Assembly (NCBI GenBank): GCA_019116525.1
Contig: DXBM01000020.1
Location: 1 to 57,696 of the forward strand
Length of the DNA: 57,696 bases
Direction: 5' to 3'
DNA from: Candidatus Olsenella pullistercoris
GTDB lineage: Bacteria; Actinomycetota; Coriobacteriia; Coriobacteriales; Atopobiaceae
In this document: in pieces, positions 15,786 through 35,023 of the stretch
Layout of the letters: every line of letters begins with the position of its first letter
Numbering within the stretch: position 1 is the stretch's first letter
The notes under the pieces: model-generated
What the model saw: the letters and a program-made list of their open reading frames with translations, nothing else
Databases searched by the model: none
Told to the model about the DNA's origin: nothing
Program-made: the position numbers and the translations under genes

Positions 15786-15901
15786 ATACCCATTTTTTAA
15801 GCCCGACGGGTGATGGCAAAAAGGCTCCTTCAAGCAAAACTTAAGGGAGGAACTGCCACGTCATGCCGCAACGGCCTGCCGAGAAGGAGAGAGTGAGGCG
15901 T

Positions 15902-17773
15902 ATGAAGAGGAGATTTCTAGCGCTTGTTGCGTCAACGGTCGCCCTTGTGGCGATGCTGCCCGCGGTGGCACACGCGGACGGTGTGACCGAGCTGCGCATC
16001 CTTGGGCAAGACCTGCTTCAGACGCCGATCATCAGCTGCGGCTCGGGCACGGCTTCCTATGAAGCGGCAACCAACACGCTCACGCTCGAGAACGCGACGA
16101 TAGACGCCGATGGCGGCAACGGCATCAGGTTCACCGGGTCGCTCACCATCCACCTGGTCGGCGAAAACAAGATTGAGGCGGATCAGCGCGGCATCTACGG
16201 CAACGGCGTCGAAGGGGAAACCGTCCTGCTGACCGGTGACGCCGGGGCGTCGCTCACCATCGTCTCGGGCGACGAGGGCGTGCAGGTCGACGACAGCACG
16301 TCCCCGTCAGAGCTCGAGATCAGCGGCGTGACCCTCGACGTGACCTCGGGCGCTCGCTCGGCCCTCGTGCTCGAGGGCCTCTCCCTTGAGGTCACGGGCG
16401 GAGCCGAGGCGAGCCTCGTCACGAGCTCTCAGAGCAGCGCCCTGAGGACGGACGCTGACGTTGCCATTGCGGACGGGAGCAGCGTGGCCCTTGAGGGCGC
16501 GGGCAGCTACGGCGCGCTCGTGGGCGGCGAGCTTGCCGTCGAGGGCGCGAGCCTCACCGCCAAGAGCTCCTCGACGGCGCTGTGGGCCAAGGGCAACATC
16601 ACCATTGAGGACGCCACCGTCTCCGCCTCGTCCTCCGGCAACGCCCTCCGCACCGACAAGACCCTTGCGGTCTCGGGTGACTCTGCCGTCACGGCGCAGG
16701 GAGGCGTGTTCGGCGAGACGGGCGTCACGGTCTCCCCGCTGGCCGGCGAGCGCGTTGACGTTTGGGCGGGCGCTTCCGAGGACGAGGCCGCGCACTACGC
16801 GAGCTCCGACGGGACCCTGCGCTCCCCGTTCTCCTCGGACGCAACGCTGAACAGCTACGGCGGCCTGAGCGCCAACTCCTACGTGCGCATCGTGCGCCAC
16901 GAGCACTCCGGCGCCCCCGCCACCTGCACGCAGCGCGCGGTCTGCGAGTACTGCGGCGATACGTACGGCACGCTCGACCTCTCCAACCATGTCTGGGGCG
17001 ACCCCGTGTTCCGTTGGTACGAGGGGGGTAAGGTGTGCGCGGTCGCCTTCCCGTGCGAGATGGACCCCTCTCACGTCAGCCTGATGGACGCGAGCGTGAG
17101 CTCGGCCGCGGGCAAGGCCCCCACGTGCACCGAGGCCGGCACCACGGTCTACACTGCCACGGTGAGCTTCGGCGGCTCTGACTACTCTGCCACCACTGAG
17201 ACCGCCGACGTTGCCGCCCTTGGTCACAAGACCGAGCTCGTGGGCGCTCGCGACGCCACGGCCCTGGCCGAGGGCTACACGGGCGACCTCGTCTGCACCG
17301 TGTGCGGCACGACGGTCAAGACGGGCGAGACCATCGCCCGCCTGCCCATGGGGACCGAGGTCATGTACCGCCTCTACAACCCCAACTCCGGTGAGCACTT
17401 CTACACGTCGAGCCTCGTGGAGCGCGAGGTCCTGGTCACGGTGGGCTGGAGGGACGAGGGCGTGGGCTGGGTGGCCCCCACCGAGGGAGACCCGGTATAC
17501 CGCCTCTACAACCCCAACGCCGGCGACCACCACTACACGATGAGCGCCCATGAGCGCGACGTCCTCGTGGAGGCCGGCTGGACCGACGAGGGCGTTGGCT
17601 GGTACTCAGCAAACGAGAAGGACGTGACGGCGCTCCCCGTCTACCGGCAGTACAACCCCAATGCAGCCACCGGCACGCACAACTACACCCTGAGCAAGGA
17701 CGAGAACGACATGCTGGTCGACGCCGGGTGGAACGCCGAGGGCATCGCGTGGTACGCCGTGGAGCCCCTCTAG
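15902..17773 (+). CDS. Secreted surface protein with DUF5648 repeats
   Basis: 623 residues. A signal peptide (MKRRFLALVAS to AHA, about 1-24) is followed by a region of repeated short beta-strands rich in Ala/Ser/Gly (about 30-300) resembling a right-handed beta-helix or carbohydrate-binding domain. Next come one copy of a CxxC-containing HVWGDPVFRWYEGGKVC-type module (about 335-475) and three DUF5648 repeats (RLYNPNSGEHFYT, RLYNPNAGDHHYT, RQYNPNAATGTHNYT; about 490-623). There is no LPXTG anchor, so it is released or held by its repeats. ATG 15902 starts directly on the positively charged signal peptide; an ATG at 15863 with a GGGAGG site is the alternative. It lies 97 bp before a larger relative. 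Confidence 0.8.
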   Translation: MKRRFLALVASTVALVAMLPAVAHADGVTELRILGQDLLQTPIISCGSGTASYEAATNTLTLENATIDADGGNGIRFTGSLTIHLVGENKIEADQRGIYGNGVEGETVLLTGDAGASLTIVSGDEGVQVDDSTSPSELEISGVTLDVTSGARSALVLEGLSLEVTGGAEASLVTSSQSSALRTDADVAIADGSSVALEGAGSYGALVGGELAVEGASLTAKSSSTALWAKGNITIEDATVSASSSGNALRTDKTLAVSGDSAVTAQGGVFGETGVTVSPLAGERVDVWAGASEDEAAHYASSDGTLRSPFSSDATLNSYGGLSANSYVRIVRHEHSGAPATCTQRAVCEYCGDTYGTLDLSNHVWGDPVFRWYEGGKVCAVAFPCEMDPSHVSLMDASVSSAAGKAPTCTEAGTTVYTATVSFGGSDYSATTETADVAALGHKTELVGARDATALAEGYTGDLVCTVCGTTVKTGETIARLPMGTEVMYRLYNPNSGEHFYTSSLVEREVLVTVGWRDEGVGWVAPTEGDPVYRLYNPNAGDHHYTMSAHERDVLVEAGWTDEGVGWYSANEKDVTALPVYRQYNPNAATGTHNYTLSKDENDMLVDAGWNAEGIAWYAVEPL

Positions 17774-17870
17774 GGTCCGGCACGCCAACGAACGCAGAGA
17801 GCCCTGTCCGCGAACCGCGTGCCGTCCAGGGCGACGGCGCGCGGGGCAGACTCAGACCTAGGAGGATGAC

Positions 17871-20800
17871 ATGCGCAAACGCTTGCTTGCCGCGTTCCTG
17901 AGCGCGCTGCTCGCGCTTTCGTCCCTGCCGCTTGCGGCCATCCCCGCCATGGCGGACGAGGGGGACAGCAGGTTTGACACCATCCTTGAGATGGACTCGG
18001 TGCCGCCTGCCGGCTTTGACGAGAACAGCGAGGAGAACCCGTACGGACAGCCCAAGAACCAGCCGTTCCTGCTGAACACCGAGAGCGAGCTCATGGTGTA
18101 CCGGAACAAGGAAAACGGCGCAGACGTTGACCTCGGCTGGTACGACACGCGGGTGAACAGCGGCCTTTATCTCGAGCTCAATGGCGACAAGAACGGTTTT
18201 GAGAGCGCGGGCCTCTACGACAGTAGTGCGGTGGACGTGCTCAAGGAGCTGTACCACGTTGAGTCGGTGGCCTTTGACCCCACGGGCAGCGGGCGCAAGG
18301 ACCACGTTGCCTACATCGGCCATGCCGCAACCAGTGAGCATGATGGCGAGATTGTCATCGTGGTTGTCGACACCACGCGGTACAACAAGAGCGCCACGTT
18401 TAGCTTTGAAAACGCCGGCTGGATGAACGGGGTCGAAGCGTGGACTGGTGGAAACTACCTCGCCATCACGGCCGGCGACTATAACGGCTCAGGGCACGAG
18501 ACGCTCGTGGCCCACGTGCTGACCAACAACTATACGTATGGCCTGGCGCAGCTTTCCTACGACGCGAGCTCAAACAAAATCACCTGCATGGACAGTCAGA
18601 ACAAGTCCCTTCTGCACTGGAAGTACGTGGAGGAGAACCACGGTCACGAGCTCGATGACAGCACCCATGAGGAAGACAAGATGTCCGCCGACCTTGCCAC
18701 CGGAGACTTCAACGGTGACGGCATCGACGACCTCGCCGTCGTGTCCTACCTGAACGGCGGAGCGGGCGGAGAGGATAACAGAAACTGGGACTGTGCCTAC
18801 TTCTTCCCGATGTTGAACGTTGCCTATGGCGCAAGCGATGGTCGCGTGGTCTTTGACAACCAGCAGAGCGGTTTCTGCCAGCTCCGGCGCGAGGATCGTG
18901 ACGGGCTGAGGTACAAGCTGACCGCGCCTGCCGCCCCGGGCATCGCCGCCGGTGACGTTGACGGGGACGGCGTGGACGAGATCGTGGTCGCAGGGTCCAA
19001 GAACACCATCACGTCCAAGACGAACTCCTACGACGCGGCGGATCGCGGCGGATGGTCGATTAATGGTGAGAGCTGGGTCATCATTACGCTGAACGCCCGC
19101 GAGGACGGCACGTTCGCAGACCCGGGAGGGGAGGCGGGCACGACCACCCTCTCTGAGGTGGGCTCCAACGCGTGGTTCGCCGGTGGAACGGGAGGCGAGA
19201 CGTGCCGTTCCCCGATGGACGTTGAGTGCGTGGCCATGAACGGCGCAGCCGCCGCGGAGTACGTCTTCATGGGCGGTGCGCTCTTCGACCTGAGCACGTC
19301 GACGCCAGAGCGCCTGTACACTCCCGGGTACTTCAACGAAGACGACGCCGGCGCTGATGATGAGATTATCGATGAGGTCTATCTGCAGTCCATCGTGGCG
19401 GGCAACTTCGACCGCGACGGCAAGGAGTGGGGCTACGAGCAGGTCATGTACGTCATCGTGCTCAAGGATAGAAACCAGAATGACTACTTCTACATGCTCG
19501 GCATGATCGGCGGCAAAAACTACGACGGCCACGGCGGCCCAGTAGGGAGCATGGGCGGCACGGATCAGACACGATTCTTCGACGTTAAGAGCGACTACAT
19601 CATCTCCGACACGGGCGGCGGCTATCGAACTACCATTGTCATCACTCCCATGGACCGCGACAAGGACGGCGTGATGGCGCGCTACGTGGGCAAGAACTAC
19701 GTCTACGCCGACCCGCAGGTGCTCGCCGTGCTCCAGATGGCGCCCTATTTCGACGAGATCGACATCGGCAACGACGCCGGCGCCACCACCTATACCTTCA
19801 CGCAGACCTACGAGTACACGGAGGGAACCTCCGAGAGCAAGTCCTACAGCATCGGCGGCGCCTTCGGCGTGGAGACTCCTGCTGTCAACGTGGAGGTGGA
19901 GGCAGGCTACGCTAACAGCTGGTCCAGGAGCTTTGAGAACACGCTCACGCGCTCCGTCACGGACAGCTTCACCGCCAAGGCCTATGACAGCGTGGTGGTC
20001 TACCGCACGCCGATTTTCAACTACAACTACCAGCTCATGAGCGAGGACGGCACGGACTGGGTGAGCCTTGAGGAGGATGGGATCACCATATCCGTCCCCA
20101 AGACGCCCACGTACGTCCAGATGTCTGTTGAGGACTACAACAGCTTCGTTGGCGTCTATAACGCTATGATGGCGGAGGATACGGGCAACAAGTACACCCC
20201 CATGAAGGAACTCAACCTCAGCTACCTGGGCCAGGAGGGCAACCCTTGGGGCTACGGGGCCTCGCTCGACCAGGTGAGCAACAACACCTACCAGCTCGGC
20301 TACAACGGCGGCGAGACGTCGAGCGCAAGCTCGACCGGCCAGGCAACGACCGAGACCATCGAGCGGGAGACGGGCTTCTCGTTTGAGATTTCCTTGACGA
20401 CGGGTGTCAACCTGGGCATGATCTCCGCCATGGCCGGCGTCAACTACAGCCTCGAGGAGATGGCGGGCAACAGCACCTCAAAGACCACCTCGAGCGAGAC
20501 CGAGACGAGTGGCACGGTCCAGGACCTCGATTGGAAGTACCTGCTTGAGGAGTACGGCATCCCCGAGAGCGTCACGCGCTCCTACGGCTTTACCTGGAAC
20601 CTGGGCAAGAACGAGGTTGACCTGGGCGCTGCGGGCGATAAGGCCCTGGTCATTGGCTACAACGTCTCAAACATCTCGGCGCCCCCGCCGGCGGTGAGCG
20701 AGCTTACGGCTCGCCAGGCGGATGAGACGAGCGTCGACCTCAGCTGGGTTGACCCTTCGGTCGCCGGCCGCGTCACTGTTGACGGATACAACGTGTACAT

Positions 20801-23345
20801 GCGCAATGAGGACGGGACGTACCGGAAGCTCAACGACGAGCCGCTGTCCAAGGGCACCCTCGAGTACCGCGTTGAGAACCTGGAGTCCAATACCGACTAC
20901 ATCTTTGTGGTCACCACGCTGGGCGGCGGCAAGGAGAGCGCCTGGTCCAACGAGGCCGCGATCAAGACGCCCAAGGGCATGAAGGCGCTCACCCTTGCCT
21001 ATGATGACGACGAAGTCGAGCTCACGGCCTCTCACCTGGGTAACGTTGACATCCAAAGCGGCGAGAAGGTCCCTGAGGAGACCATCGTCTACGTGAGCGT
21101 TGCCCCCAAGGACGGGTACACCATCACGGGCGTGACGCTCACCCAGGAGGGCGAGGAGCCGGAGTCCGTCAACATGACCGACGGACAGTTCAACTTCGTC
21201 ATGTACGAGAACACGTCCATTGAGGTCACGAGCGAGAAGGTGGTCGACAAGAGCGTCGTGAGCTACGTGGACGAGGTCACGGACGGCAGCGGCAACGTTA
21301 CCGGAACCGTTGAGGCGCACACCAGCTCCGGCAACGAGATCGACGCCTCTGGGGCGGAGGTCTCCGGGCCGGTCGAGTTTGTCGCCACGCCCGCCGACGG
21401 GTACGCCCTCAAGGAGTGGCATGTCACCTCGTCCTCGGGCAACAGCGTGATTGACGCCGTTGGCAACGAGCTCACCTTCTATCCGTATGAGGACGAGCAC
21501 ACGGTCACGCCGGTCTTTGTGCCGATCACCGACCCGGATGTTTCTCGCGCGGTGGAGCTCAATGCGGGAGACGGCGGCCAGATCGAGGTCAAGAGCGGCG
21601 ACAGCGTCCTGACCCCCGATGACAACGGCACCATCACCGTTGCGCGCGGCACCGAGCTGACCTTCACGGCGGTGCCTGACGACTTCTACAACTTCATCGG
21701 CTGGACCGACGGCTTTGCGGACTATGAGGACGACACGGACAACGTCACGCTGCGGGTCCTTGACAACCTTACCGTGGGCGCCACGTTTGAGGCCGACCTG
21801 CTCTACACGCTTGAGTTTGGCGTGCGGGGCGAGTCCGGCGGGGGCGGGACCCTGACCGCGTCCGCCAACGGGGCGCAGGTGACGAGTGGCCAGAAGTTTG
21901 TTCCCGATACGCAGGTCGACTTTGCGGCGATGGCTGACGGTGGCAGCCGCTTCCTCAAGTGGGGAGTGACGGAGGGCACCGTCACCACGTTCGTGCCTGC
22001 GAGCGAGGGCCTGGTCACAGAGGACAGCTACGAGCTCACGCTTGTGGCCAACAGCTCCGTTGACGCGTACTTTGGAAAGATCGAGCAGTACAACCTGAGC
22101 GTCCCGGCGACCGTGACCAACGGGCGCGTCATCGTCGAGCGCGGCGGGAGCGTCGTCTCCCCGGGCAGCGGCGCCCTGAGCTACGGTGACGTCATCACCA
22201 TCAACGCCGAGCCGGACGAGGGCTACATCCTCACCTCGCTCATGGTGAACGGCGAGGAGTTCACGCCGGGAGAGACGCTCTTGGTGACGGGTGCCGTTGA
22301 GGTTGTCCCGACGTTCGTTGAGAACACGGCGCACTCGCACAGCTGGGGCACCCCCACGTGGACATGGGCGAGCGACGCCTCCTCTGCCACGGCACACTTT
22401 GCGTGCTCCTGCAGGGAGACCAAGGACGTCGAGGCAGTGGTGACCTCTGCGCCCAGCACCGAGCCCACCTGCGAGGGCGAGGGGGCTACGACCATCACCG
22501 CAACGGTCGGCTTTGACGGGCAGACCTACACCGACGAGAGGGCCGGGGACCAGCTTCCCGCGCTCGGCCACGCCTGGGGAGAGCCCGAGTGGAAGTGGAG
22601 CGAGGACGGGAAGTCCTGCACGGCAACCTTTGCCTGCGAGAACGACCCTGGGCACGTCGAGGTCGTGAGCGCCCAGGTGAGCTCGAGCGTGAAGAAGGAG
22701 GCGAGCTGCACCGAGCCGGGCTCCGTCGTTACCACCGCACAGGTGAGCTTTGAGGGCAAGGACTTCTCGACCACCCGAACGGACGAGGTCACGGCCCTTG
22801 GCCACACGACCGAGCTCGTGGGCGCCAAGAACCCCACCGAGTACGAGCGGGGCTACACCGGCGACGTGGTGTGCGCCACGTGCGGCGAGACGATCAAGAA
22901 GGGCGAGGACATCGCCACCCTTCCGATTGACTCCGAGATCATGTACCGCCTCTACAACCCCAACTCCGGCGAGCACTTCTACACGGCGAGTCTGGAGGAG
23001 CGCTCCATGCTCATTGCCGCGGGCTGGACGGACGAGGGCGTGGGCTGGGTGGCCCCCACCGAGGGAGACCCGGTCTACCGCCTCTACAACCCCAACGCCG
23101 GCGACCACCACTACACGACGAGTGTCGACGAGCGCGACGCTCTCGTTGAGGCTGGTTGGACGGACGAGGGCGTTGGCTGGCACTCCGCGCCCGCGGGGTC
23201 TGAGGTGAGCGTTCCCCTCTACCGGCAGTACAACCCCTATGCCACCACCGGAACGCACAACTACACCCTGAGCGCCAACGAGCGCGACGTGCTCGTGGAT
23301 GCCGGCTGGAAGGACGAGGGAATCGGCTGGTACGGCATCAAGTAA
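17871..23345 (+). CDS. Giant secreted multidomain protein (FG-GAP, FN3, DUF5648)
   Basis: 1824 residues with an AMA-cleaved signal peptide (1-28). Order: FG-GAP/VCBS-type calcium-loop repeats (DFNGDGIDDLAV near 278, DVDGDGVDEIVV near 361); a Ser/Thr-rich amphipathic beta region (about 643-940: SESKSYSIGG, NVEVEAGYANSWSRS, TSKTTSSETETSG) that looks like an aerolysin-type pore former; a fibronectin III domain (about 945-1035); several InlB/bacterial Ig-like repeats (FIGWTDG, about 1044-1484); two HxWG CxxC modules; three DUF5648 repeats (1691-1824). AGGAGG precedes the ATG. No cell-wall sorting signal is present. Adhesin or toxin-like function is inferred. The first 2 kb is less GC-rich than surrounding genes, hinting at acquisition. 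Confidence 0.82.
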   Translation: MRKRLLAAFLSALLALSSLPLAAIPAMADEGDSRFDTILEMDSVPPAGFDENSEENPYGQPKNQPFLLNTESELMVYRNKENGADVDLGWYDTRVNSGLYLELNGDKNGFESAGLYDSSAVDVLKELYHVESVAFDPTGSGRKDHVAYIGHAATSEHDGEIVIVVVDTTRYNKSATFSFENAGWMNGVEAWTGGNYLAITAGDYNGSGHETLVAHVLTNNYTYGLAQLSYDASSNKITCMDSQNKSLLHWKYVEENHGHELDDSTHEEDKMSADLATGDFNGDGIDDLAVVSYLNGGAGGEDNRNWDCAYFFPMLNVAYGASDGRVVFDNQQSGFCQLRREDRDGLRYKLTAPAAPGIAAGDVDGDGVDEIVVAGSKNTITSKTNSYDAADRGGWSINGESWVIITLNAREDGTFADPGGEAGTTTLSEVGSNAWFAGGTGGETCRSPMDVECVAMNGAAAAEYVFMGGALFDLSTSTPERLYTPGYFNEDDAGADDEIIDEVYLQSIVAGNFDRDGKEWGYEQVMYVIVLKDRNQNDYFYMLGMIGGKNYDGHGGPVGSMGGTDQTRFFDVKSDYIISDTGGGYRTTIVITPMDRDKDGVMARYVGKNYVYADPQVLAVLQMAPYFDEIDIGNDAGATTYTFTQTYEYTEGTSESKSYSIGGAFGVETPAVNVEVEAGYANSWSRSFENTLTRSVTDSFTAKAYDSVVVYRTPIFNYNYQLMSEDGTDWVSLEEDGITISVPKTPTYVQMSVEDYNSFVGVYNAMMAEDTGNKYTPMKELNLSYLGQEGNPWGYGASLDQVSNNTYQLGYNGGETSSASSTGQATTETIERETGFSFEISLTTGVNLGMISAMAGVNYSLEEMAGNSTSKTTSSETETSGTVQDLDWKYLLEEYGIPESVTRSYGFTWNLGKNEVDLGAAGDKALVIGYNVSNISAPPPAVSELTARQADETSVDLSWVDPSVAGRVTVDGYNVYMRNEDGTYRKLNDEPLSKGTLEYRVENLESNTDYIFVVTTLGGGKESAWSNEAAIKTPKGMKALTLAYDDDEVELTASHLGNVDIQSGEKVPEETIVYVSVAPKDGYTITGVTLTQEGEEPESVNMTDGQFNFVMYENTSIEVTSEKVVDKSVVSYVDEVTDGSGNVTGTVEAHTSSGNEIDASGAEVSGPVEFVATPADGYALKEWHVTSSSGNSVIDAVGNELTFYPYEDEHTVTPVFVPITDPDVSRAVELNAGDGGQIEVKSGDSVLTPDDNGTITVARGTELTFTAVPDDFYNFIGWTDGFADYEDDTDNVTLRVLDNLTVGATFEADLLYTLEFGVRGESGGGGTLTASANGAQVTSGQKFVPDTQVDFAAMADGGSRFLKWGVTEGTVTTFVPASEGLVTEDSYELTLVANSSVDAYFGKIEQYNLSVPATVTNGRVIVERGGSVVSPGSGALSYGDVITINAEPDEGYILTSLMVNGEEFTPGETLLVTGAVEVVPTFVENTAHSHSWGTPTWTWASDASSATAHFACSCRETKDVEAVVTSAPSTEPTCEGEGATTITATVGFDGQTYTDERAGDQLPALGHAWGEPEWKWSEDGKSCTATFACENDPGHVEVVSAQVSSSVKKEASCTEPGSVVTTAQVSFEGKDFSTTRTDEVTALGHTTELVGAKNPTEYERGYTGDVVCATCGETIKKGEDIATLPIDSEIMYRLYNPNSGEHFYTASLEERSMLIAAGWTDEGVGWVAPTEGDPVYRLYNPNAGDHHYTTSVDERDALVEAGWTDEGVGWHSAPAGSEVSVPLYRQYNPYATTGTHNYTLSANERDVLVDAGWKDEGIGWYGIK

Positions 23346-26104: not shown

Positions 26105-26809
26105 ATGGCTGACACCGTGCTCGTGGTGGAGGACGACCCGGACATCGTGGAGCTGCTCGAGCTGTACCTCGGCGGCAGCGGCTTTGAGGTCGTCTCGGCG
26201 TCGGATGGCGCCGAGGCGCTGCGGATGCTCGAGGCGCGCCCCGCCGACGTGGCGCTCGTCGACATCATGATGCCCCACATGAACGGATACGACTTCATCA
26301 AGGCGCTCCGCGAGCGGAGCGACATGCCCGTGATCATCGTGTCGGCGCGCACGAGCCCTGCCGACAAGATCGTGGGCCTCGACACCGGCGCGGACGGCTT
26401 TGTTGCCAAGCCCTTCGACCCGCTCGAGGTGGTTGCGTACGTCCGGGCCGCGCTGCGCCGCTGGGGTGCCCCGGGTCGGCCCGAGGCTGGCGCGGAGGAG
26501 GCCGCCCCGCGCTGCCTCACCGTGGGGGACCTGTCCTTTGACCCCGAGCGGCTCACTCTCAGCCGCGCGGGCGAGCCCGTCCCCCTCACGGCGGCGGAGC
26601 TGAAGATCATGGCGAAGCTCATGTCGTCCCCCGGGAGGGTCTTCACGAAGGCTCAGCTCTACGCCTGCGTGAGCGGGGAGGATGGCCCTGGGGGAGAGGG
26701 GAGCGTCATGGTGCACATCTCGAACATCAGGGCAAAGCTCGAGGAGGACCCGCTGCACCCCCGTCACATCAGGACCGTGCGCGGGCTGGGGTACCGGATC
26801 GATGCCTGA
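26105..26809 (+). CDS. OmpR-family response regulator
   Basis: 234-residue response regulator. The receiver domain has the acidic pair at 10-12 (VVEDDPD), phosphoacceptor Asp53 (ALVDIMMP), Ser/Thr switch in IIVSARTS and Lys of VAKPFDP. After an Ala/Pro-rich linker, the winged-helix C-terminal domain (about 140-234) ends with HISNIRAKLEEDP and RTVRGLGYRI. AAAGGAGG precedes ATG 26105. Its stop overlaps the sensor kinase start by 8 bp. Position directly before the dlt-like operon suggests control of cell-envelope modification, as for other Gram-positive dlt regulators. Confidence 0.93.
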   Translation: MADTVLVVEDDPDIVELLELYLGGSGFEVVSASDGAEALRMLEARPADVALVDIMMPHMNGYDFIKALRERSDMPVIIVSARTSPADKIVGLDTGADGFVAKPFDPLEVVAYVRAALRRWGAPGRPEAGAEEAAPRCLTVGDLSFDPERLTLSRAGEPVPLTAAELKIMAKLMSSPGRVFTKAQLYACVSGEDGPGGEGSVMVHISNIRAKLEEDPLHPRHIRTVRGLGYRIDA

Positions 26810-28484
26810 GACGCCCTCCGCTTCCGGGCACTCGCTCACGGGCCGGCTCGCGCGGCTGCGACAGAGCCTGGGCGCGCGCTGCCTCGCCGTCCTTATCGCC
26901 TACGCCATGACGATCACGCTCCTCATCACGGGCGTCGGCGCGCTGGGCGACGCCATCTTCGACAACGCCTTCCCCTCGATGAGGACCGTGCTCCAGGAGA
27001 GCGACGACCTGATCCGTGACCGCTACGAGGTCCTTCAGTCAAAGAGGTTCTCCGAGTGCCTCATCGCCGTCTTCGACGGGGAGGGCCGACGGCTGTTCGC
27101 GTCGAGCGACCGAGCTGTCGAGAAGATCCGCGCGGCGGACCTTCCGCTCATCAACGACTACGAGGAGGGGACCTTCTACGAGGTCTTCGAGGAGCGCGAG
27201 GACGGCGCCCTACGCCATCGCATCATGCTCTGTCGCTACGCCGGGCCGGACGGGACTACGAAGCTCTCGACGGCGTGGTGCGTCCTCGACGAGGACCTGA
27301 ACGTCCTCGAGGGGACGCTCTTCCAGGGGCGCGAGGCGCTGACGGAGCGGGAGTTCAACTTCATCAAGGGCGTCTACGACGCGCGCATGTCGGTGGAGCG
27401 CTACGAGTACGAGAACGAGCTCGGGGAGCCGCGCACCCTCGTCCTCGCCGCGCCCCTCGTGAGCGAGCGGAGCTACGAGCGCGTGACGGGCGCGGTGGGG
27501 CGGCTCTGGCCCGTCGCCGCCCTTCTCGCCCTCGCTGCCACGGTCGTTGTCGCCCTCGTCCTGGTGAGGGTCGTCAGGCGCGCGGTGCGGCCCATCGACG
27601 GGGCCATCGCGGCGTACGGGAGCGCGGACCGGGGAGCCGAGGCTCCCCCGCCGGCGGAACGGGCGGGCGTCCCCATGGAGCTCGCCCCGATCTACGAGAA
27701 CCTCAGGTACCTCATGCGCCGCCTGGGGGAGGCGCAGGACGACTACAGGCGCCTGGTCGCGAGCGTGTCGCATGACCTGAAGACCCCGCTGACCGTCATC
27801 CGTGGGTACGCGCAGGCGCTCCACGAGGGCAGGGCGCCGAAGGGGCGGGAGGACGCCTACCTGCGGGCCATCCTCAGGAAGTCCGTCGCGGCGGGGGAGC
27901 TCCTCGACGAGCTCTCGTCCTGCGCGCAGATGAACCATCCCGAGTTCAGGGCCCGGCTCGTGCCGCGTGACCTCAGGGAGCTCGTGACGCGGGCGGTGGA
28001 GAGGGCCGGCGACCAGGCGCTGCAGGCGGGCGGCACGGTGGAGGCGGCGGTGGGCCCGGAGCCGGTCTGCGCCCTCGTCGACGAGGAGCTGCTCGAGCGC
28101 GCGCTGCTCAACCTCATTGGGAACTCCTTTGACCACAACGCGAGCGGCACGCGCGTGCGGGTGCTCTGCGAGACGGCGCGCCCCCACGGCGCCCCGCCGT
28201 CCGCGCGCGTATCGGTGCTCGACACGGGCTCGGGCTTTCCCGAGGGGATGGCAGAGAGGGCGTTCTCCCCGTTCGTGACCGAGAACGTCTCGAGGCGGGA
28301 GGGCGGCGGCACCGGGCTCGGCCTCACCATCGTCAGCCGCGCCGCCGAGCTGATGGGCGGGGACGCCGAGATAGTCGAGCGCCCGGAGGCGCCCTGGGGC
28401 GCGGAGGTCGTCATCCGCCTGCCGCTGCTCGAGGGCCAGGACGCGGCCCTCGGCTCGCCCGATGACCCCGGCGCAGGTGTCTAA
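26802..28484 (+). CDS. Sensor histidine kinase, HisKA type
   Basis: 560-residue membrane kinase. TM1 is about 28-48 and TM2 about 232-256, giving a roughly 185-residue outside sensor region with acidic character. HAMP-like linker, then HisKA with phosphoacceptor His324 (SVSHDLKTPLTVIRGYAQAL), N box NLIGNSFDHNASG, G1 DTGSGF and G2 GGGTGLGLTIV. Start overlaps the response regulator stop, so the pair is translated together. The signal is unknown; cationic peptides or envelope stress are typical for systems next to dlt genes. Confidence 0.92.
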   Translation: MPETPSASGHSLTGRLARLRQSLGARCLAVLIAYAMTITLLITGVGALGDAIFDNAFPSMRTVLQESDDLIRDRYEVLQSKRFSECLIAVFDGEGRRLFASSDRAVEKIRAADLPLINDYEEGTFYEVFEEREDGALRHRIMLCRYAGPDGTTKLSTAWCVLDEDLNVLEGTLFQGREALTEREFNFIKGVYDARMSVERYEYENELGEPRTLVLAAPLVSERSYERVTGAVGRLWPVAALLALAATVVVALVLVRVVRRAVRPIDGAIAAYGSADRGAEAPPPAERAGVPMELAPIYENLRYLMRRLGEAQDDYRRLVASVSHDLKTPLTVIRGYAQALHEGRAPKGREDAYLRAILRKSVAAGELLDELSSCAQMNHPEFRARLVPRDLRELVTRAVERAGDQALQAGGTVEAAVGPEPVCALVDEELLERALLNLIGNSFDHNASGTRVRVLCETARPHGAPPSARVSVLDTGSGFPEGMAERAFSPFVTENVSRREGGGTGLGLTIVSRAAELMGGDAEIVERPEAPWGAEVVIRLPLLEGQDAALGSPDDPGAGV

Positions 28485-28490
28485 ACGAAT

Positions 28491-28553
28491 CTTAAGCGTG
28501 ACTTCATGAGGGCTTAAGGGCGGTTCCGTAGCCTCTTCTCGTGACACGAGAAG
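28491..28553 (+). promoter_or_regulatory. CTTAAG direct repeats and leader hairpin before dlt-like operon
   Basis: CTTAAG occurs at 28491-28496 and 28513-28518, spaced 22 bp (two helical turns), a layout typical of OmpR-family activator sites. It is followed by a perfect 9-bp hairpin CTTCTCGTG/CACGAGAAG (28535-28553) just upstream of the first operon gene, whose ribosome site is GAGGAGGG. Confidence 0.6.
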
Positions 28554-28565
28554 CGAGGAGGGACC

Positions 28566-30167
28566 ATGGGATCTGCTGAGAACGAGAAGGGCTGCGCGCC
28601 CGTCACGCCCGCCCGCTACGCGCACCTGGCCGTTGGTCTCCTGGAGCGCGGCGCGATCGCGCACCCCGGGCGGACGGCCGTGGTGGACGAGTGGGGCTCC
28701 GTGACCTACGCGGGGCTCTTCGAGCGCGCCCAACGGCTTGCGAGCGGGCTTCTCGATCGGGGGCTCGGGGGAAGGGCGGCGGTCGTCGTCGCCGAGAAGA
28801 GCGCCGACGCGCTCGTGGCGTTCTTCGGCACGCTCATGGCCGGCGGCTTCTACGCGCCCGTTGCCCCCGACGCCCCCGCAGGGCGTGCGGGGGGCGTCTG
28901 GCGGCGCCTCGACGGGCCTGTCGTGATTGCGCACGAGGCGACCGCCCGCTCTGCCCGGGAGCTCTTCCCGCTCGCCGACGTTCTGCTCGTCGAGGAGCTG
29001 GTGGCGTCTGACGTCAACGAGCCCGCGCTCGAGCGCGCCGCCCGCGAGGCCGTGAGCACCGACCCCGCCTACGTGCTGTTCACCTCCGGCTCCACCGGGG
29101 AGCCCAAGGGCGTCGCCGTGAGCCACCTGGCCGTCCTCGACTTCGTCGGCTCGTTTGTCTCGACCTTTGGCATCGGGCCCGATGACGTGCTCGGCAACCA
29201 GGCACCCCTCGACTTTGACGTCTCCGTCAAGGACGTCTACGGCGCGCTCGCTGCGGGCGCCTGCGTGGCGCTGCTGCCGCGCCGGCTCTTCTCGTCCCCG
29301 GCGGAGCTCGTCGAGAGGATCGTGGAGTGGCGAGTCACGGTGCTCGTCTGGGCAGTAGCGGCTCTCTGCCTGGTGAGCGGCCTCAACGCCCTCGACCACG
29401 TGGTCCCCTCGAGGGTGCGCCTGGTGCTCTTCAGCGGCGAGGTGATGCCGCTCGAGCACCTCCGCCGCTGGATGGGCTGCCTTCCCGGGGCGACCTTCGC
29501 GAACCTCTACGGCCCGACCGAGATAACGTGCAACTGCCTGTTCCACGTCGTCGAGCGGGACCGCACATACCCCGAGAGCATCCCCCTCGGCGCCCCGTTC
29601 CCCAACCGCAGGGTGCTCCTGCTCGACGAGGAGGGGCGCCAGGTCACTCGCCGCGGGGGCGTCGGGGAGATCTGCGTGGGAGGCCCCTCGGTGGCCCTGG
29701 GCTACTACGCCGACCCAGAGCGCACGAGCCGCTCCTTCGTGCGCAGCCCGCTCGACAGCGCGCTGCCCGTGACCCTCTACAGGACCGGCGACCTCGCGCG
29801 CATCGGGGGCGACGGCGAGCTCTACTTCTGTGGCAGGAGGGACAACCAGGTCAAGCACCTTGGGCACCGGATTGAGCTCGAGGAGATCGACGCTGCGTTC
29901 GAGCGCCAGGCAGGGGTCGAGCGCTGCCGCTGCGCCTACGACGTCGAGCGGCACCGCATCTGCGCCTTCTTTGAGGGAACGGCCGATCCCGGCGCCCTGC
30001 GGGAGGCCGTGGCGGCCCTGCTTCCTGGCGCCGTGGTGCCCACGAGGATCGAGCGCGTTGACGGCATGCCGCTCACCAGGAACGGAAAGGTCGACAGGAG
30101 GGCGCTGCTGCGGGGCCTTGTCGGGCAACGAGGACGCCGGGGGCAGATGGGAGGCAGCCATGCTTGA
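28566..30167 (+). CDS. DltA-like amino-acid adenylating enzyme
   Basis: 533-residue ANL-superfamily adenylation enzyme expected to activate an amino acid with ATP and load it on the carrier protein encoded two genes on. Motifs: A3 LFTSGSTGEPKG (171-182), A4 LDFDVSVKD with the amino-group-binding Asp near 216-223, A5 LYGPTE (314-319), A7 YRTGDL (405-410), A8 RRDNQVKHLGHRIELEEID, A10 with Lys508 (LTRNGKVDRR). The order of genes resembles dlt operons, but the pocket region TEITCNCLFH differs from usual DltA, so D-alanine specificity should not be assumed. Overlaps the next start by 8 bp. Confidence 0.82.
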   Translation: MGSAENEKGCAPVTPARYAHLAVGLLERGAIAHPGRTAVVDEWGSVTYAGLFERAQRLASGLLDRGLGGRAAVVVAEKSADALVAFFGTLMAGGFYAPVAPDAPAGRAGGVWRRLDGPVVIAHEATARSARELFPLADVLLVEELVASDVNEPALERAAREAVSTDPAYVLFTSGSTGEPKGVAVSHLAVLDFVGSFVSTFGIGPDDVLGNQAPLDFDVSVKDVYGALAAGACVALLPRRLFSSPAELVERIVEWRVTVLVWAVAALCLVSGLNALDHVVPSRVRLVLFSGEVMPLEHLRRWMGCLPGATFANLYGPTEITCNCLFHVVERDRTYPESIPLGAPFPNRRVLLLDEEGRQVTRRGGVGEICVGGPSVALGYYADPERTSRSFVRSPLDSALPVTLYRTGDLARIGGDGELYFCGRRDNQVKHLGHRIELEEIDAAFERQAGVERCRCAYDVERHRICAFFEGTADPGALREAVAALLPGAVVPTRIERVDGMPLTRNGKVDRRALLRGLVGQRGRRGQMGGSHA

Positions 30168-31368
30168 GGGAACGCGCGACGACGAGCTCAGGGACCTGGC
30201 CGAGCGGTTTGGGACGCCGCTGTACGTCTTTGATGCGCGGTCGCTCCGCGCGCGGGTGGACCACCTGAGGCGCGCGCTGCCCCGGGGAACGGGGCTCTGC
30301 TACGCGGCCAAGGCGAACACGTTCGTGCTGCCGGCGATCGAGCCGCTCGTGGACCGCGTCGAGGCGTGCTCTCCGGGAGAGTGCCGGATCTGCTCGTCCT
30401 GCGACGTTCCGGGCGAGAAGGTCGTGGTCTCGGGCGTCCACAAGGACGCGGGGATGCTCGAGTGGGTGCTCGACGCCTATGACGAGCTCGCGGCGGTGAC
30501 GATCGAGTCCCGCGCTCAGCTCGGCCTCGTGCGCGAGGCGGCGCGCGCGAGCGGCCGGCGCCTCCCGGTCCTGCTGCGCCTGGCGAGCGGGAGCCAGTTT
30601 GGCCTTGACCGGGCCTCGCTCGTGGGGGCTGCCCGCGAGCTCGCGGCGGCGGGCGAGGTGGAGCTCGTCGGCCTGCAGCTCTTCTCGGGCACCCAGAAGA
30701 CCTCGCAGCGCCGGGTGCGCCGCGAGCTGGAGGCGCTCGACGCGCTCGCCTGTGAGATCGGCGAGAGCTGTGGGCGGAGCGTCCCGCTCGTTGAGTACGG
30801 GCCCGGCCTCCCCGTTGCCTACTTCGAGGGCGAGGACGTGGGCGAGCCCCTGCTGCTCGAGGGGCTCTCAGAGGCGCTGGGCGCCATGAGGTTCGGGGGC
30901 GATGTCGTCCTCGAGCTGGGGCGGAGCCTCGTGGCCAGCTGTGGCACGTACCTCACGAGCGTTGTGGACGCCAAGGAGATGGCCGGCCAGCGCTACGCGA
31001 TCGTAGACGGCGGGATGCACCACCTCGTCTACTACGGACGCTCCATGGCCCTGCGCCGTCCCCTCTGCCACGCTCTCCCGCCGCGCCCGGGCGGCCTGGC
31101 GTGCGAGGCGGGGACGTGGAGCGTCTGCGGGTCCCTCTGCTCGACGAACGACGTGCTGGCGAAGCAGGTCCCGTTCGAGGCCCTTGGCGTGGGGACCGTT
31201 CTTGCCTTCGAGCGCGCGGGGGCCTACTGCGCGACGGAGGGGATGTCGCTCTTCCTCAGCCGCGACCTGCCGCGCGTGGTGGGCGTCGGGCAGGACGGGG
31301 CGCCGCGCCTGCTGCGGGACGTGGTGCCCACGAGCCCGCTCAACGCGCCGCGGGAGAGGTGGGGGTGA
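30160..31368 (+). CDS. Fold-III PLP-dependent decarboxylase (BtrK/LysA-like)
   Basis: 402-residue enzyme of the alanine racemase/DapDC fold. PLP Lys51 lies in YAAKAN. SGSQFGL (143-149), VEYGPGLPVAYF (211-222), LELGRSLVASCG (251-262) and VDGGMHH (282-288) follow. The second active-site block reads CGSLCSTND with Cys327, where diaminopimelate decarboxylases have CESGD; the missing Glu argues against LysA. DGGMHH is like the exosortase-associated and BtrK enzymes, which decarboxylate aminoacyl groups bound to carrier proteins. It lies between the adenylation and carrier genes, which is unusual for dlt operons. Acting on carrier-bound amino acid is inference. Confidence 0.78.
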   Translation: MLEGTRDDELRDLAERFGTPLYVFDARSLRARVDHLRRALPRGTGLCYAAKANTFVLPAIEPLVDRVEACSPGECRICSSCDVPGEKVVVSGVHKDAGMLEWVLDAYDELAAVTIESRAQLGLVREAARASGRRLPVLLRLASGSQFGLDRASLVGAARELAAAGEVELVGLQLFSGTQKTSQRRVRRELEALDALACEIGESCGRSVPLVEYGPGLPVAYFEGEDVGEPLLLEGLSEALGAMRFGGDVVLELGRSLVASCGTYLTSVVDAKEMAGQRYAIVDGGMHHLVYYGRSMALRRPLCHALPPRPGGLACEAGTWSVCGSLCSTNDVLAKQVPFEALGVGTVLAFERAGAYCATEGMSLFLSRDLPRVVGVGQDGAPRLLRDVVPTSPLNAPRERWG

Positions 31369-31460
31369 GCGCCGCGCACCCTTGCGCCCGTCCCGCGGGT
31401 GCGACCCAAGATGACCGCCGTTGCGTTGGCGGGCCGAGGGCCCGCCGGAAAGGAGATGCC

Positions 31461-31694
31461 ATGGACGCCGTGAAGGACATTCTCGAGGAGCTCAAGCCGG
31501 GCGTGGACTACCTGTCCCGCGAGGACCTCGTTGACGCGCGCGTGCTCGACTCCCTCACCATCATTGCGCTCGTCGCGGAGCTGGAGGACGCCTTCGACAT
31601 CACGATCCCCGCGGTGGAGATCGTGGCGGACAACTTCAACTCCCTCAGGGGCATCTGGGCGCTCGTCGAGCGCCTGCGCGCGCAGGACCTCTAG
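31461..31694 (+). CDS. Acyl/peptidyl carrier protein (DltC-like)
   Basis: 77-residue carrier protein with the phosphopantetheine attachment Ser31 in VLDSLTII. The DltC-like features are the short length, ELEDAFDITIPAVEIVADNFNSL and a helical four-bundle pattern. The usual DSLG of fatty-acid ACP is DSLT here, as in aminoacyl carriers. AAGGAG precedes ATG 31461. It probably receives the amino acid from the enzyme at 28566 and presents it to the PLP decarboxylase and the MBOAT protein. Confidence 0.88.
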   Translation: MDAVKDILEELKPGVDYLSREDLVDARVLDSLTIIALVAELEDAFDITIPAVEIVADNFNSLRGIWALVERLRAQDL

Positions 31695-31702
31695 GAGCTG
31701 CC

Positions 31703-33277
31703 GTGACGTCGTACTTCTCGCCGGCCGTCCTGGGGCTCTTTGCCCCGCTCTCCGTCATTGCGTACCAGCTCTTCCCAAGAAGGGCGCGATGGGCGGCCCT
31801 GCTCGGGGCGAGCCTCGTCTTCTTCTGGGCGCTGAGCGGGCGCCTCGTTGTGTTTGTCCTCGCGTCGGCGGCGATCGTCTGGGTCGGGGGCATGGCCCTG
31901 GGCGCGCTCGCGCGCTCGCGCGACCGTGCGCTCGCTGCTGAGGGCGCCGAGCGGAGGAGGGTGCGGCGCACGTACCAGCGCAGGATGCGCGCGGTGCTCG
32001 CCGTGGGGGTCCTGCTCAACGTTGGCATCCTCGTTGCCCTCAAGTACCTGGGGTTCCTGGGCTCGGTTGCCGAGGGGCTCGGGCTCGGCCTCCCCAGCCT
32101 CCCCTCGATCGGGGTGCCCATCGGCATCTCGTTCTACACGCTCCAGGCCGTGTCGTACCTCACTGACGTCTACCGGGGCGTTGTCCCGGCGGACGCGAAC
32201 CCCGCTCGCCTCGCGCTCTTTCTGACCTTCTTTCCCCAGGTCATGGAAGGTCCCATAGCCCGCTACTCCCAGACCGCGCAGGCGCTCTGGTCGGGTCGGC
32301 CCGTGACGGCGAGGGGGCTGTTCCTCGGGGGCACGAGGGTCCTCTGGGGCCTCTCCAAGTACCTGCTCGTTGCGAACCGGCTCAACTCGTTCGTGAAGCC
32401 CGTCTTTGCCGATCCCGCCTCCTACGACGGCAGCGTCATCGCCGTGGCTGCCGTGCTCTACACGATGCAGCTCTACTGCGACTTCTCGGGAACGATCGAC
32501 TTCGCGGTGGGCATGGCGCGCGTCTTTGGCGTGGAGGAGCCCGAGAACTTTCGCCAGCCGTTCCTCTCGCGCACCGCGTCCGAGTTCTGGCAGCGCTGGC
32601 ACGTCACGCTGGGGTCGTGGCTCAAGGACTACGTCTTCTACCCCGTCTCCCTGAGCCGGCCCGTCAAGCACCTGACCGGTGCGGCGAGAAGGGCCCTTGG
32701 CGTCCGCGTTGGCCCGGCGGTCGCGAGCGGGGTGGCCCTGCTGTGCGTGTGGGTCGCCAACGGCCTCTGGCACGGCGCGGGCACCCAGTACCTCCTCTTC
32801 GGCCTGTACTACTTCGTCATCATCTGGCTCGGGGGAATCGTTGCCCCCCTGTCCGAGGGCGCCCTCGCCCGCGTGGGCGTCTCTCGCGACGCCCTGCCCT
32901 GGCGGGCGTTCCAGCACGTGCGGACGCTCCTCGTCGTCTTTGCGGGCGAGCTGCTGTTCCGTGCGTCGGGGGCGCGGCAGGGGATCTCCATGCTCCTTCG
33001 GACGGTCACCGACTTCTCCCCTGCCTCGTTCGTGGACGGGACGATGCTCGGCGTTGGCATGGACCTGCACGACTTCGCGGTGGTCGGCGCGTTCGCTGTC
33101 CTGCTGCTGGTGGTGGGCCTTGTGCGGGAGCGCGGCTCGTCTCCGCTCGAGCGCGTCTGGGAGCGCGGGCCCGCGGCCCGCCTTGCGATTGTGACGGCCT
33201 TGGTCGTCATGGCAGTGGTGTTCGGAGCGTACGGGGTGGGCTACGTGCCCGTTGACCCCATGTACGCGCAGTTCTAG
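31703..33277 (+). CDS. MBOAT O-acyltransferase (DltB-like)
   Basis: 524-residue multi-pass membrane protein with about a dozen hydrophobic helices. FFPQVMEGPIARYSQ and DFSGTIDFAVGMARVFG are DltB/AlgI signatures. The catalytic His of the MBOAT family is His357 in NGLWHGAGTQY, preceded by WHVTLGSWLKDYVFYPVS. It should move the acyl group from the carrier protein across the membrane. GTG 31703 has TAGGAG before it and lies 8 bp after the carrier gene, indicating coupling. Confidence 0.9.
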   Translation: MTSYFSPAVLGLFAPLSVIAYQLFPRRARWAALLGASLVFFWALSGRLVVFVLASAAIVWVGGMALGALARSRDRALAAEGAERRRVRRTYQRRMRAVLAVGVLLNVGILVALKYLGFLGSVAEGLGLGLPSLPSIGVPIGISFYTLQAVSYLTDVYRGVVPADANPARLALFLTFFPQVMEGPIARYSQTAQALWSGRPVTARGLFLGGTRVLWGLSKYLLVANRLNSFVKPVFADPASYDGSVIAVAAVLYTMQLYCDFSGTIDFAVGMARVFGVEEPENFRQPFLSRTASEFWQRWHVTLGSWLKDYVFYPVSLSRPVKHLTGAARRALGVRVGPAVASGVALLCVWVANGLWHGAGTQYLLFGLYYFVIIWLGGIVAPLSEGALARVGVSRDALPWRAFQHVRTLLVVFAGELLFRASGARQGISMLLRTVTDFSPASFVDGTMLGVGMDLHDFAVVGAFAVLLLVVGLVRERGSSPLERVWERGPAARLAIVTALVVMAVVFGAYGVGYVPVDPMYAQF

Positions 33278-33290
33278 GAAGGGAGGGCTC

Positions 33291-34259
33291 ATGAGGCGCA
33301 AGCTGGCCGGCGCGCTGCGCGCGACCGTGGCGGTCGCGCTCTCGGCGGCGTTCATGCTCGGGGTTCTGGTGGCGCTCTCGCACCTGGTGATGCCCAAGAA
33401 CAACCAGGCGGAGTTCGGGCAGATAGACGCGAGCGCGCACGGGGTGGCGGGGGAGCGTCCCAACAGCATCGACGTCCTGTTCATGGGGGACTCCGAGGCG
33501 TACAGCTCCTTCTCGCCGCTCGACCTGTGGCACGCGCGAGGCATCACCTCCTACGTTGTGGCGACCTCGTCGCAGAAGCTCCCGTACACGCGCTCGCTGC
33601 TGGCGTACGCGCTTGCGCGCCAGAGCCCCCGCGTGGTGGTGCTCGACGCGAACTGCCTCTTCCGGCCCTTCTCGCCCGGTGATGCGCTGGTGCGAGCCGC
33701 CCAGGACGCGCTTCCCGTGTTCGAGTACCACAACCGCTGGAAGAGCCTGACGCTGGAGGACGTGGTGGGAACCGTCCGGACGACGTGGAGCGACGAGCTG
33801 AAGGGTTTTCACCTGAGCGCGAAGGTCGATCCGGCGGACGCGTCCGGCTACCAGACGCCCACGGACAGGGTCGCGAGCATGCCCGCGCTCAGCATGGCGT
33901 ACCTGCACGACATCGCGAGGACCTGTGCCGATAGGGGCGCGCACCTCGTGCTTGTGAGCACGCCGAGCACCAAGAACTGGGACATGGCGAAGCACAACCG
34001 CGTGAGGCTCGTTGCGGAGGAGCTGGGCGTGGACTACGTTGACCTCAACATGGGCGACGAGCGCGTGGACATAGACTGGTCGACCGACACGCGCGACGCC
34101 GGCGACCACCTCAACCTGAGCGGCGCGAGAAAGGTCACCGCGCGGATGGGAGAGCTCCTGAGCGGGAGGTACGGCCTCGAGGGGCACCGCGGGGATCCTG
34201 CGTTCGACTCCTGGGACGAGGCGTACTCCCGCTACGAGCGGAAGGTCAGCGAGCTCTAG
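33291..34259 (+). CDS. DltD-like SGNH-fold membrane protein
   Basis: 322 residues. One N-terminal membrane anchor (10-32) is followed by an extracytoplasmic SGNH hydrolase-like domain: GDSEAYSSFSP with Ser68, LDANCLF, and the C-terminal Asp-His pair at 272-273 (DAGDHLNLSG). DltD proteins take part in final transfer of D-alanine to teichoic acids; AlgX-like acyltransferases share the fold. It is shorter than classical DltD (about 400). GAAGGGAGG precedes ATG 33291. It is the last gene of the operon. Confidence 0.8.
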   Translation: MRRKLAGALRATVAVALSAAFMLGVLVALSHLVMPKNNQAEFGQIDASAHGVAGERPNSIDVLFMGDSEAYSSFSPLDLWHARGITSYVVATSSQKLPYTRSLLAYALARQSPRVVVLDANCLFRPFSPGDALVRAAQDALPVFEYHNRWKSLTLEDVVGTVRTTWSDELKGFHLSAKVDPADASGYQTPTDRVASMPALSMAYLHDIARTCADRGAHLVLVSTPSTKNWDMAKHNRVRLVAEELGVDYVDLNMGDERVDIDWSTDTRDAGDHLNLSGARKVTARMGELLSGRYGLEGHRGDPAFDSWDEAYSRYERKVSEL

Positions 34260-34267
34260 CCGCGCGC

Positions 34268-34373
34268 GTTAGGAATCCCGGCCAGTGGGTACTTCGCAAG
34301 GCGAAAACTCCCCACGGGCCGGGATTCCTATACACATGGCGAGAAAAACGCCCCACTGGCCGGGATTCCTAAC
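34268..34373. repeat. GTTAGGAATCCCGGCC inverted repeat element
   Basis: GTTAGGAATCCCGGCCAGTG (34268-34289) and its exact 22-bp complement (34352-34373) enclose a third, partial copy CCCACGGGCCGGGATTCCTA (34311-34330). It occupies the 3' end of the dlt-like operon and may serve as terminator. Confidence 0.75.
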
Positions 34374-34390
34374 GGCGGCACACCCCCGTC

Positions 34391-34922
34391 TCACGACAAA
34401 CCACCCAACAAACGCGCTCCAGCAGACGTTTGCCCAGTTGGACTCGTTTCGGACGCGTGTGTTGGGTGGTTCTGCCTTGTCCCCCAGGCGTGCCGCTCGC
34501 GGGCCACGAGCCGTGCCACGAAGTCGGTCGCGGGGTGGGCGAGAAGCTCGTCGGGCGCGTCGTACTGCTGGACGCGCCCAGCGTCGACCACGAGCACGCG
34601 CGTGCCCAGCCTCAGCGCCTCCGAGACGTCATGCGTGACGAAGAGCACGGTGATGCCCGTCTCGCGATGGATGCGGGCGATCTCCGTCTGGAGCTGGCCG
34701 CGCGTGAGCTCGTCCACGGCGCCGAAGGGCTCGTCCATGAGCAGGATCTCGGGCGAGGCCGCGAGCGCCCGCGCGATGCCCACGCGCTGGGCCTGCCCGC
34801 CCGAGAGCTCGTCGGGGTAGCGCTCGCGCAGTCCCGCGTCGAGCCCCACGATGCCCATCCACTTCTCAACGGCGGCCTCCGTGCGCGCCCGGTCTTTCCG
34901 GTTGAGCAGGCTGGGCACGTGA
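34391..34922 (-). pseudogene. Truncated ABC ATPase (OpuCA/ProV-like), 5' end lost
   Basis: The frame encodes the C-terminal half of an osmoprotectant-type ABC ATPase: signature LSGGQAQRVGIARAL, Walker B ILLMDEPFGAVDELTR, switch His in VLFVTHDVSEAL, and VQQYDAPDELLAHPATDFVARL. Walker A and the first 110 or so residues are missing. Native sequence begins at VPSLLNRKDRARTEAA, right at the repeat starting at 34923. The last 25 or so residues read through the AACCACCCAACA inverted repeat (34399-34410/34460-34471). No intact start is left other than one inside the repeat, so it is almost surely dead. Confidence 0.82.
34399..34471. repeat. AACCACCCAACA inverted repeat
   Basis: AACCACCCAACA (34399-34410) and TGTTGGGTGGTT (34460-34471) are exact complements around 49 bp, with extra partial pairing (ACGCG). 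It lies at the 3' end of the ABC ATPase remnant. Confidence 0.7.
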
Positions 34923-35023
34923 GTGACAGAGGGGACGGGGGGATCTGTCAAGTCTCTGTCCCCTCTGTCAACACCTGACGGAAGTCCCGGAGACATGACA
35001 GATCCCCCCGTCCCCTCTGTCAC
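34923..35023. repeat. Family B inverted repeat, 28-bp perfect arms
   Basis: Arms GTGACAGAGGGGACGGGGGG (34923-34950) and the exact complement (34996-35023) flank 45 bp that contain further GTCCCCTCTGTCA. It replaces the 5' ends of the two flanking, divergent gene remnants. Relatives are at 38834 and 52354. Confidence 0.88.

Follow-up and report, generated by a model that had tools for sequence, protein, structure and literature searches.

A dlt-like operon with a decarboxylase predicted to act on its carrier protein, in Candidatus Olsenella pullistercoris and other bacteria

The DNA described here, called the window, is a stretch of 57,696 nucleotides from Candidatus Olsenella pullistercoris (positions 1 to 57,696 of contig DXBM01000020.1). 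Five genes at 28566..34259 form an operon that probably directs a dlt-like aminoacylation of the cell envelope, in which the amino acid would be decarboxylated while it is bound to a carrier protein. The genes encode an adenylation enzyme (A), a fold-III pyridoxal phosphate (PLP) decarboxylase (K), a phosphopantetheine carrier protein (C), an MBOAT acyltransferase (B) and an SGNH-fold protein (D). Judged by sequence, the operon resembles in its logic the Dlt system with BtrK added, but it departs from Dlt in defining features.

The operon and its distribution

All five genes are on the + strand. A (28566..30167) belongs to the amino-acid adenylation domains (TIGR01733, 332.4 bits with a cut-off of 317.4; also PF00501), and its predicted role is to charge the carrier with an acidic amino acid. 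K (30160..31368) starts with an ATG inside the end of A, so that the two genes overlap by 8 bases, and contains both domains of the ornithine/diaminopimelate/arginine decarboxylase fold (PF02784 and PF00278); its predicted substrate is a carrier-bound aminoacyl group. C (31461..31694) follows after 92 bases, matches PF00550 and carries a DSL serine site. B (31703..33277), which starts with GTG, is separated from C by 8 bases, and D (33291..34259) from B by 13. The set of five tightly packed genes proposed in the initial annotation is confirmed by the coordinates, the profile matches and the fold model of D.

Relatives of K, counted at E values up to 1e-30, are present in 59 genomes of a class sample of 396 Coriobacteriia. 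Within the window's own genus, six genomes have such a relative, as against at least 20 that lack one. Wider stretches were taken from 57 of the 59 genomes, leaving out the window's own and G378, and together with the window they make up 58 loci. These fall into type I, with a close MBOAT (38 loci), and type II (20 loci, L068-L083 and L085-L088). The order A-K-C-B-D on one strand is found in 34 of the 38 type I loci, the window included; three of the others are K-C-B-D with no A found and one is A-K-D-C-B. The serine of the C site is unchanged in all 38 type I rows. The decarboxylase belongs to the operon, because A and/or C adjoins K in all 58 loci and because the order is conserved.

The type II loci keep A-K-C (C was not found in L088), and many of them have other MBOAT and SGNH-like genes on the 5' or 3' side. 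This MBOAT and SGNH-like set differs from that of type I and is often duplicated, whereas the adenylation pocket is nearly the same. No MBOAT was found within the fetched stretch of L071 or L086, and three SGNH-like proteins, each from L079, have no Pfam match.

The search of genomes for this gene order, proposed in the initial annotation, was extended to all species, with one genome per species. At least 580 encoding stretches were found, and the best 80 were kept. By their titles, 59 of these are outside the Coriobacteriia: mostly Clostridia (Agathobaculum, Pseudoflavonifractor, Faecousia, Acetobacterium), with some Erysipelotrichaceae and one labelled Tenericutes. The exact order A-K-C-B-D recurs in 66 of the best 80, and its recurrence is far beyond chance. 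The K sequences of 17 of the 80 duplicate those of the first set; the combined set has 138 loci, or K rows, including duplicates, and 120 distinct K sequences. The variant order A-K-D-C-B is seen in L049, L128, L133 and L142, three of which are labelled Eggerthellaceae (L049 duplicates L133). In a Clostridiales locus, L120, A-K-C-B is followed by four D-like open frames.

A sample of the phylum, also of 396 genomes and searched at E values up to 1e-25, gave 33 genomes with a match to K. The 24 outside the class have only 30-34% identity. Thirteen of their loci were fetched, of which 11 have A, K and C and two have K alone; none of the 13 has a B or D match. The loci L096-L106 are carrier-ligase-decarboxylase trios of other Actinomycetota with no MBOAT or SGNH match. 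One of the known systems nearest to the operon is the exosortase A-associated pair, TIGR03098/TIGR03099, in which a ligase and a PLP decarboxylase are likewise adjacent, and a carrier gene is present in 11 of the 13 distant loci; unlike the operon, however, these distant loci have no MBOAT or SGNH match beside them. Membership of the operon in the exosortase A pair was rejected, with 178.9 bits for A (cut-off 592.35) and 159.5 bits for K (cut-off 478.45). The positive control, L105, passes both models, and both ligases tested (L096 and L105) pass TIGR03098.

The decarboxylase and the adenylation enzyme

The catalytic residues of K are almost invariant. The PLP lysine and the cysteine are each present in 137 of the 138 rows, and the glutamate and arginine of the EPGR motif in all 138 (120 of them distinct). 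The residues that hold free diaminopimelate are another matter. In diaminopimelate decarboxylase, according to passages of PMC7857480, an acid following the cysteine touches the side-chain amine of the substrate, and an arginine of the specificity helix touches its carboxylate; the same source describes BtrK as decarboxylating glutamate bound to a carrier. The residue after the catalytic cysteine is glutamate in three diaminopimelate decarboxylase references, threonine in BtrK, and threonine or serine in all 137 readable K rows. The arginine of the specificity helix falls in a gap in all 138 rows.

When a profile of 42 K sequences was compared with the PDB, BtrK was the top match at 208.8 bits, and the best diaminopimelate decarboxylase scored 180.7. 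The AlphaFold model of K has a mean predicted local distance difference test (pLDDT) score of 91.4 and matches the decarboxylase fold; in the fold comparison the Z score of BtrK was tied with those of diaminopimelate decarboxylases. In a tree with BtrK the support at the deep forks is 76/79. K has features of the carrier-type decarboxylases, namely fold III with the lysine and cysteine, no acid after the cysteine and an adjoining C gene, the rule of 'no acid after Cys' being based on BtrK and on passages about its relatives. K was rejected as the LysA of the genome. Another gene of the genome matches lysA better (279.5 bits compared to 138.9), although it is itself below the cut-off of 297.9; against the diaminopimelate decarboxylase model, which has the same cut-off, K of the window scores 144.3 bits. 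The claim of the initial annotation that decarboxylation takes place on the carrier is thus favored, at the level of sequence, by the position of K in the unit, its lack of the residues for free diaminopimelate, its BtrK-like profile and the separate LysA homolog. A related decarboxylase with the motif GPLCTPND is found on a Streptomyces plasmid (L206, 8971-13055), with a holo-acyl carrier protein synthase, an adenylating enzyme and a carrier protein, beside ectoine genes.

The ten pocket positions of A were mapped by motif and follow GrsA numbering. The pocket of the window, DVKALSLCNK, is typical of type I, where 34 of 35 rows read D[VI]K A [LM] S L C N K and one row is gapped at the first three positions. 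All 20 type II rows read DVK S x S [LV] C N K. In the all-species set DVKSLSLCNK is found in 53 of 79 rows. Lys239 is present in every row that has a residue at this position: 34 of 34 in type I, 20 of 20 in type II and 77 of 77 in the all-species set (two gaps). The usual amine-binding Asp235 is retained. Lys239 resembles the glutamate code of surfactin synthetase and suggests that the substrate of A is anionic. Retention of Asp235 is compatible with a beta-amine, as in VinN.

A is not DltA. It scores 227.6 bits with TIGR01734 (cut-off 559.85) and 226.7 with NF003417 (cut-off 476), and its pocket is unlike the DLYSLCTVAK that was found in four of five DltA-like controls; the fifth, L204, has DLFSLSTVAE. 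A DltA-like gene scoring 433-506 bits is present in 13 of the 58 genomes that have the operon, none exceeding the cut-off of 559.85. Four of the five control loci show the dlt arrangement of A, B and C, and the one of these four that was tested with the second DltA model passes it (504.5 bits, cut-off 476); L204 has no B or C match. Given the contrast between the pockets and these control dlt loci, both systems, with different pockets, coexist in some genomes. No other gene scores as DltA-like in 45 of the 58 Coriobacteriia genomes examined, and the operon may therefore be the only system of its type in them.

The loading step of the initial annotation is supported at the level of sequence, with a correction. 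The pocket sets A apart from the DltA-like enzymes of some genomes that have the operon. Since PLP enzymes act on substrates whose alpha-amine and alpha-carboxylate are both free, A would have to activate the carboxylate of the side chain. In the VinN pathway, as a passage of PMC11284099 puts it, formation of the thioester has to precede decarboxylation.

Transfer proteins and the proposed pathway

B matches PF03062 and has the WHG histidine. Its C terminus bears the motif PMYAQF, and P[MIL]YAx[FY] ends all 38 type I MBOATs. This is a variant of FXYXXF with the first phenylalanine replaced. Type II MBOATs end in F[MI]YA[NH][FY] in 21 of the 23 rows listed; the remaining two come from a frame that is split. 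Either P[MIL]YAx[FY] or FxYxxF was found in 77 of the 78 all-species loci with an MBOAT match; in the exception, L127, the MBOAT lies at the edge of a short contig. According to passages of PMC12148441, the MBOAT protein PatA acetylates the tyrosine of its own C-terminal FXYXXF motif, which is proposed to hand the acyl group to an SGNH partner, and DltX bears this motif on behalf of DltB. A crude hydropathy scan of B gave three hydrophobic segments past WHG (363-381, 456-474 and 494-512), with the motif following the last one, compared to a single segment in each of four DltB-like controls. Four of the five DltA-like control loci have a DltB-like protein that lacks the shuttle motif, together with a second open frame that has FxYxxF at its end, and the fifth has no DltB match. 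Because of the shuttle motif and the extra segments, the layout of B is of the PatA type, yet B is paired with a carrier protein. The MBOAT of the initial annotation is present, then, but as an enzyme with a built-in shuttle of the PatA type and not as a DltB with a separate DltX. The Dlt equivalog models for B and C stay below their cut-offs (TIGR04091, 139.7 of 375; NF003464, 34.5 of 68; TIGR01688, 17.5 of 52.35).

D has an N-terminal helix, presumably a membrane anchor, and the conserved motifs GDS and DxGDH. It is the predicted final transferase. The AlphaFold model (mean pLDDT 95.9) has an SGNH fold, with DltD and PatB among the structural matches. In the Foldseek search DltD is at ranks 24 and 29; with VIA-align PatB is among the matches and no DltD is among the 50 rows shown. 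A profile search of the PDB with D gave nothing significant, and profile comparison with the presumed DltD of L198 gave a weak probability of 31. D is thus an SGNH protein by its modeled fold; the earlier term 'DltD-like' is weak as a statement about sequence, because D reaches no curated profile cut-off and is not recognized as DltD.

Three further known systems share parts of this arrangement. Dlt (DltA, DltC, DltB, DltX and DltD) also combines an adenylation enzyme, a carrier, an MBOAT and an SGNH protein in one operon, with the carrier adjoining the MBOAT; an ordinary dlt operon is the subject of passages in PMC11161930. The operon of the window differs in the additional PLP decarboxylase, the pocket of A, the fusion of the shuttle to the MBOAT, the order A-K-C-B-D and a D that cannot be identified as DltD from its sequence. 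In BtrI/BtrK of butirosin and VinN/VinL/VinO of vicenistatin, as predicted here, a PLP enzyme decarboxylates a carrier-bound acidic amino acid (passages of PMC7857480 and PMC11284099), but those systems feed antibiotics, whereas here the carrier is combined with an MBOAT and an SGNH protein. PatA/PatB and other MBOAT-SGNH pairs have the C-terminal tyrosine shuttle on extra MBOAT helices and an SGNH partner. The donor of PatA, however, is acetyl-CoA (according to a passage of PMC12148441), and here it would be a carrier protein.

The pathway that we infer, from the substrate and the order of loading and decarboxylation to the acceptor, the control and the physiological role, would run as follows. 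A would adenylate an acidic amino acid at its side-chain carboxylate and load it onto the pantetheine of C. K, acting like BtrK, would remove the free alpha-carboxylate of the bound group. An omega-aminoacyl thioester would remain on C, a beta-alanyl one from aspartate or a gamma-aminobutyryl one from glutamate. We lean slightly towards aspartate and beta-alanine, because A keeps Asp235, which would fit a beta-amine as in VinN. B would then take over the group from C and carry it across the membrane to the tyrosine in the shuttle peptide at its own C terminus. From there D would transfer it to a hydroxyl on a polymer of the envelope, which is probably teichoic-acid-like or a glycan. The group would add positive charge to the surface, as D-alanine does. 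Decarboxylation on a carrier has a precedent in VinN-VinL-VinO (passages of PMC11284099).

The same envelope transfer could also be served if K first decarboxylated a free amino acid, for instance glutamate to gamma-aminobutyric acid (GABA), and A then loaded the amine. This route is chemically simple, and PMC11284099 includes a passage on IdnL3, which decarboxylates beta-glutamate, the free product then being activated. It is nevertheless unlikely, as K lacks the acid and the arginine that hold the distal group of a free substrate, its profile is nearest to a carrier-type enzyme, and Lys239 of A suggests an anionic substrate. The fold of K and the amine-binding aspartate of A would also suit diaminopimelate loaded on C, decarboxylated at one end and transferred as a lysyl or similar group, but loss of the acid for the distal amine in all 137 readable rows makes this quite improbable.

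It is just as improbable that an ordinary alpha-amino acid is transferred and that K is a racemase or has a regulatory role. K does match the N-terminal domain of alanine racemase (PF01168, 28.8 bits, cut-off 24.1), and the Dlt pathway needs no decarboxylase; K keeps, however, the decarboxylase cysteine and the C-terminal sheet domain, and the pocket of A is unlike those of the DltA-like controls. There is, finally, a very slight chance that the operon makes a small molecule or peptide for secretion instead of decorating the envelope. Trios of this kind act in natural-product pathways (a passage of PMC11284099), and related decarboxylases adjoin carrier genes in Streptomyces clusters (L206 and L207). 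Against this stands the presence of an MBOAT with a shuttle motif and its SGNH partner within the operon, although the test is a weak one, the shared neighbors apart from the two-component system being mostly unannotated. The reading preferred here is therefore transfer to the envelope after decarboxylation on the carrier.

Control, surroundings and significance

Upstream of A on the + strand lie a response regulator of the OmpR/PhoB type (26105..26809; PF00072 and PF00486), its start set at an internal ATG, and a sensor histidine kinase (26802..28484; PF00512 and PF02518), the former being presumed to regulate the operon. Such a pair is kept beside 25 of the 35 type I loci in which A was located, the window included, and beside none of the 20 type II loci; L060, which has a weaker regulator match alone, was scored as having no two-component system. 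Kinases (61) and regulators (53) are the largest groups of shared neighbors among the 138 loci, duplicates included, and none of them is from type II. Both are within 5 kb in 20 of the 59 loci outside the Coriobacteriia.

A predicted operator at 28480..28518 (+) consists of four 6-base units with an 11-base period (TCTAAA, CTTAAG, CTTCAT and CTTAAG). An exact hexamer pair was rejected as a conserved operator, since at a spacing of 11 or 22 the pair was found in the window only. The looser unit CTNNAG was chosen after 16 upstream sequences had been viewed and was then scored against shuffles and loci without the system. The four-unit repeat of the window scores 12 of 16, which was reached by 2 of 100 shuffles. 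A score of at least 11 is seen in 21 of the 25 type I loci with a two-component system, in none of the 10 without it and in none of the 20 of type II. In Bacillota the signal is weak: 5 of the 22 loci near a regulator reach a score of at least 12, as do 2 of the 30 without one. The operon would, on these data, be controlled by the adjoining two-component system.

A teichoic-acid-like acceptor is possible, because the genome has three matches to the CDP-glycerol glycerophosphotransferase family (one with TarF at 281.8 bits, cut-off 550) and one to the sulfatase family, to which lipoteichoic acid synthases belong. The sulfatase-family protein has no NCBIfam match at E values up to 1e-10, and none of these genes is linked to the operon.

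Directly 3' of the operon, at 34267-34374, is a perfect 23-base inverted repeat with arms 62 bases apart and a related third copy inside, possibly a terminator. No other copy of its 14-base core was found in the assembly with one mismatch allowed, and an Rfam search of the window at gathering thresholds gave 0 matches. Next to it, at 34391-35023 (-), a match to an ABC (ATP-binding cassette) transporter ATPase covers profile positions 82-136 of 137 only and is perhaps a remnant. Elsewhere in the window, 15863-23345 encodes two large proteins of 636 and 1824 amino acids, each ending in DUF5648, the longer of which also has fn3 and InlB-type repeats.

D-alanylation is the textbook means of tuning surface charge in Gram-positive bacteria. 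No description of the operon was found among the matches listed in open-access full text, a scope that excludes subscription papers and preprints. Automatic annotation may be expected to label its genes dltA, dltB and lysA and so to mask it. The nearly identical pocket in both architectures, A-K-C-B-D and the one with a different MBOAT-SGNH set, suggests that the same group is delivered by both. The chances are about even that gut Clostridia and Coriobacteriia have here a widespread aminoacylation of the envelope apart from D-alanylation, which places achiral beta-alanine or GABA, made on a carrier, on a surface polymer. If so, the logic of natural-product synthesis, in which an amino acid is loaded and decarboxylated on a carrier, would be joined to envelope chemistry, and common gut anaerobes would possess another carrier-based system, one that includes a decarboxylase, and an unrecorded surface group. 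Such a group may influence the charge of the surface, the tolerance of cationic peptides of the host and immune recognition.

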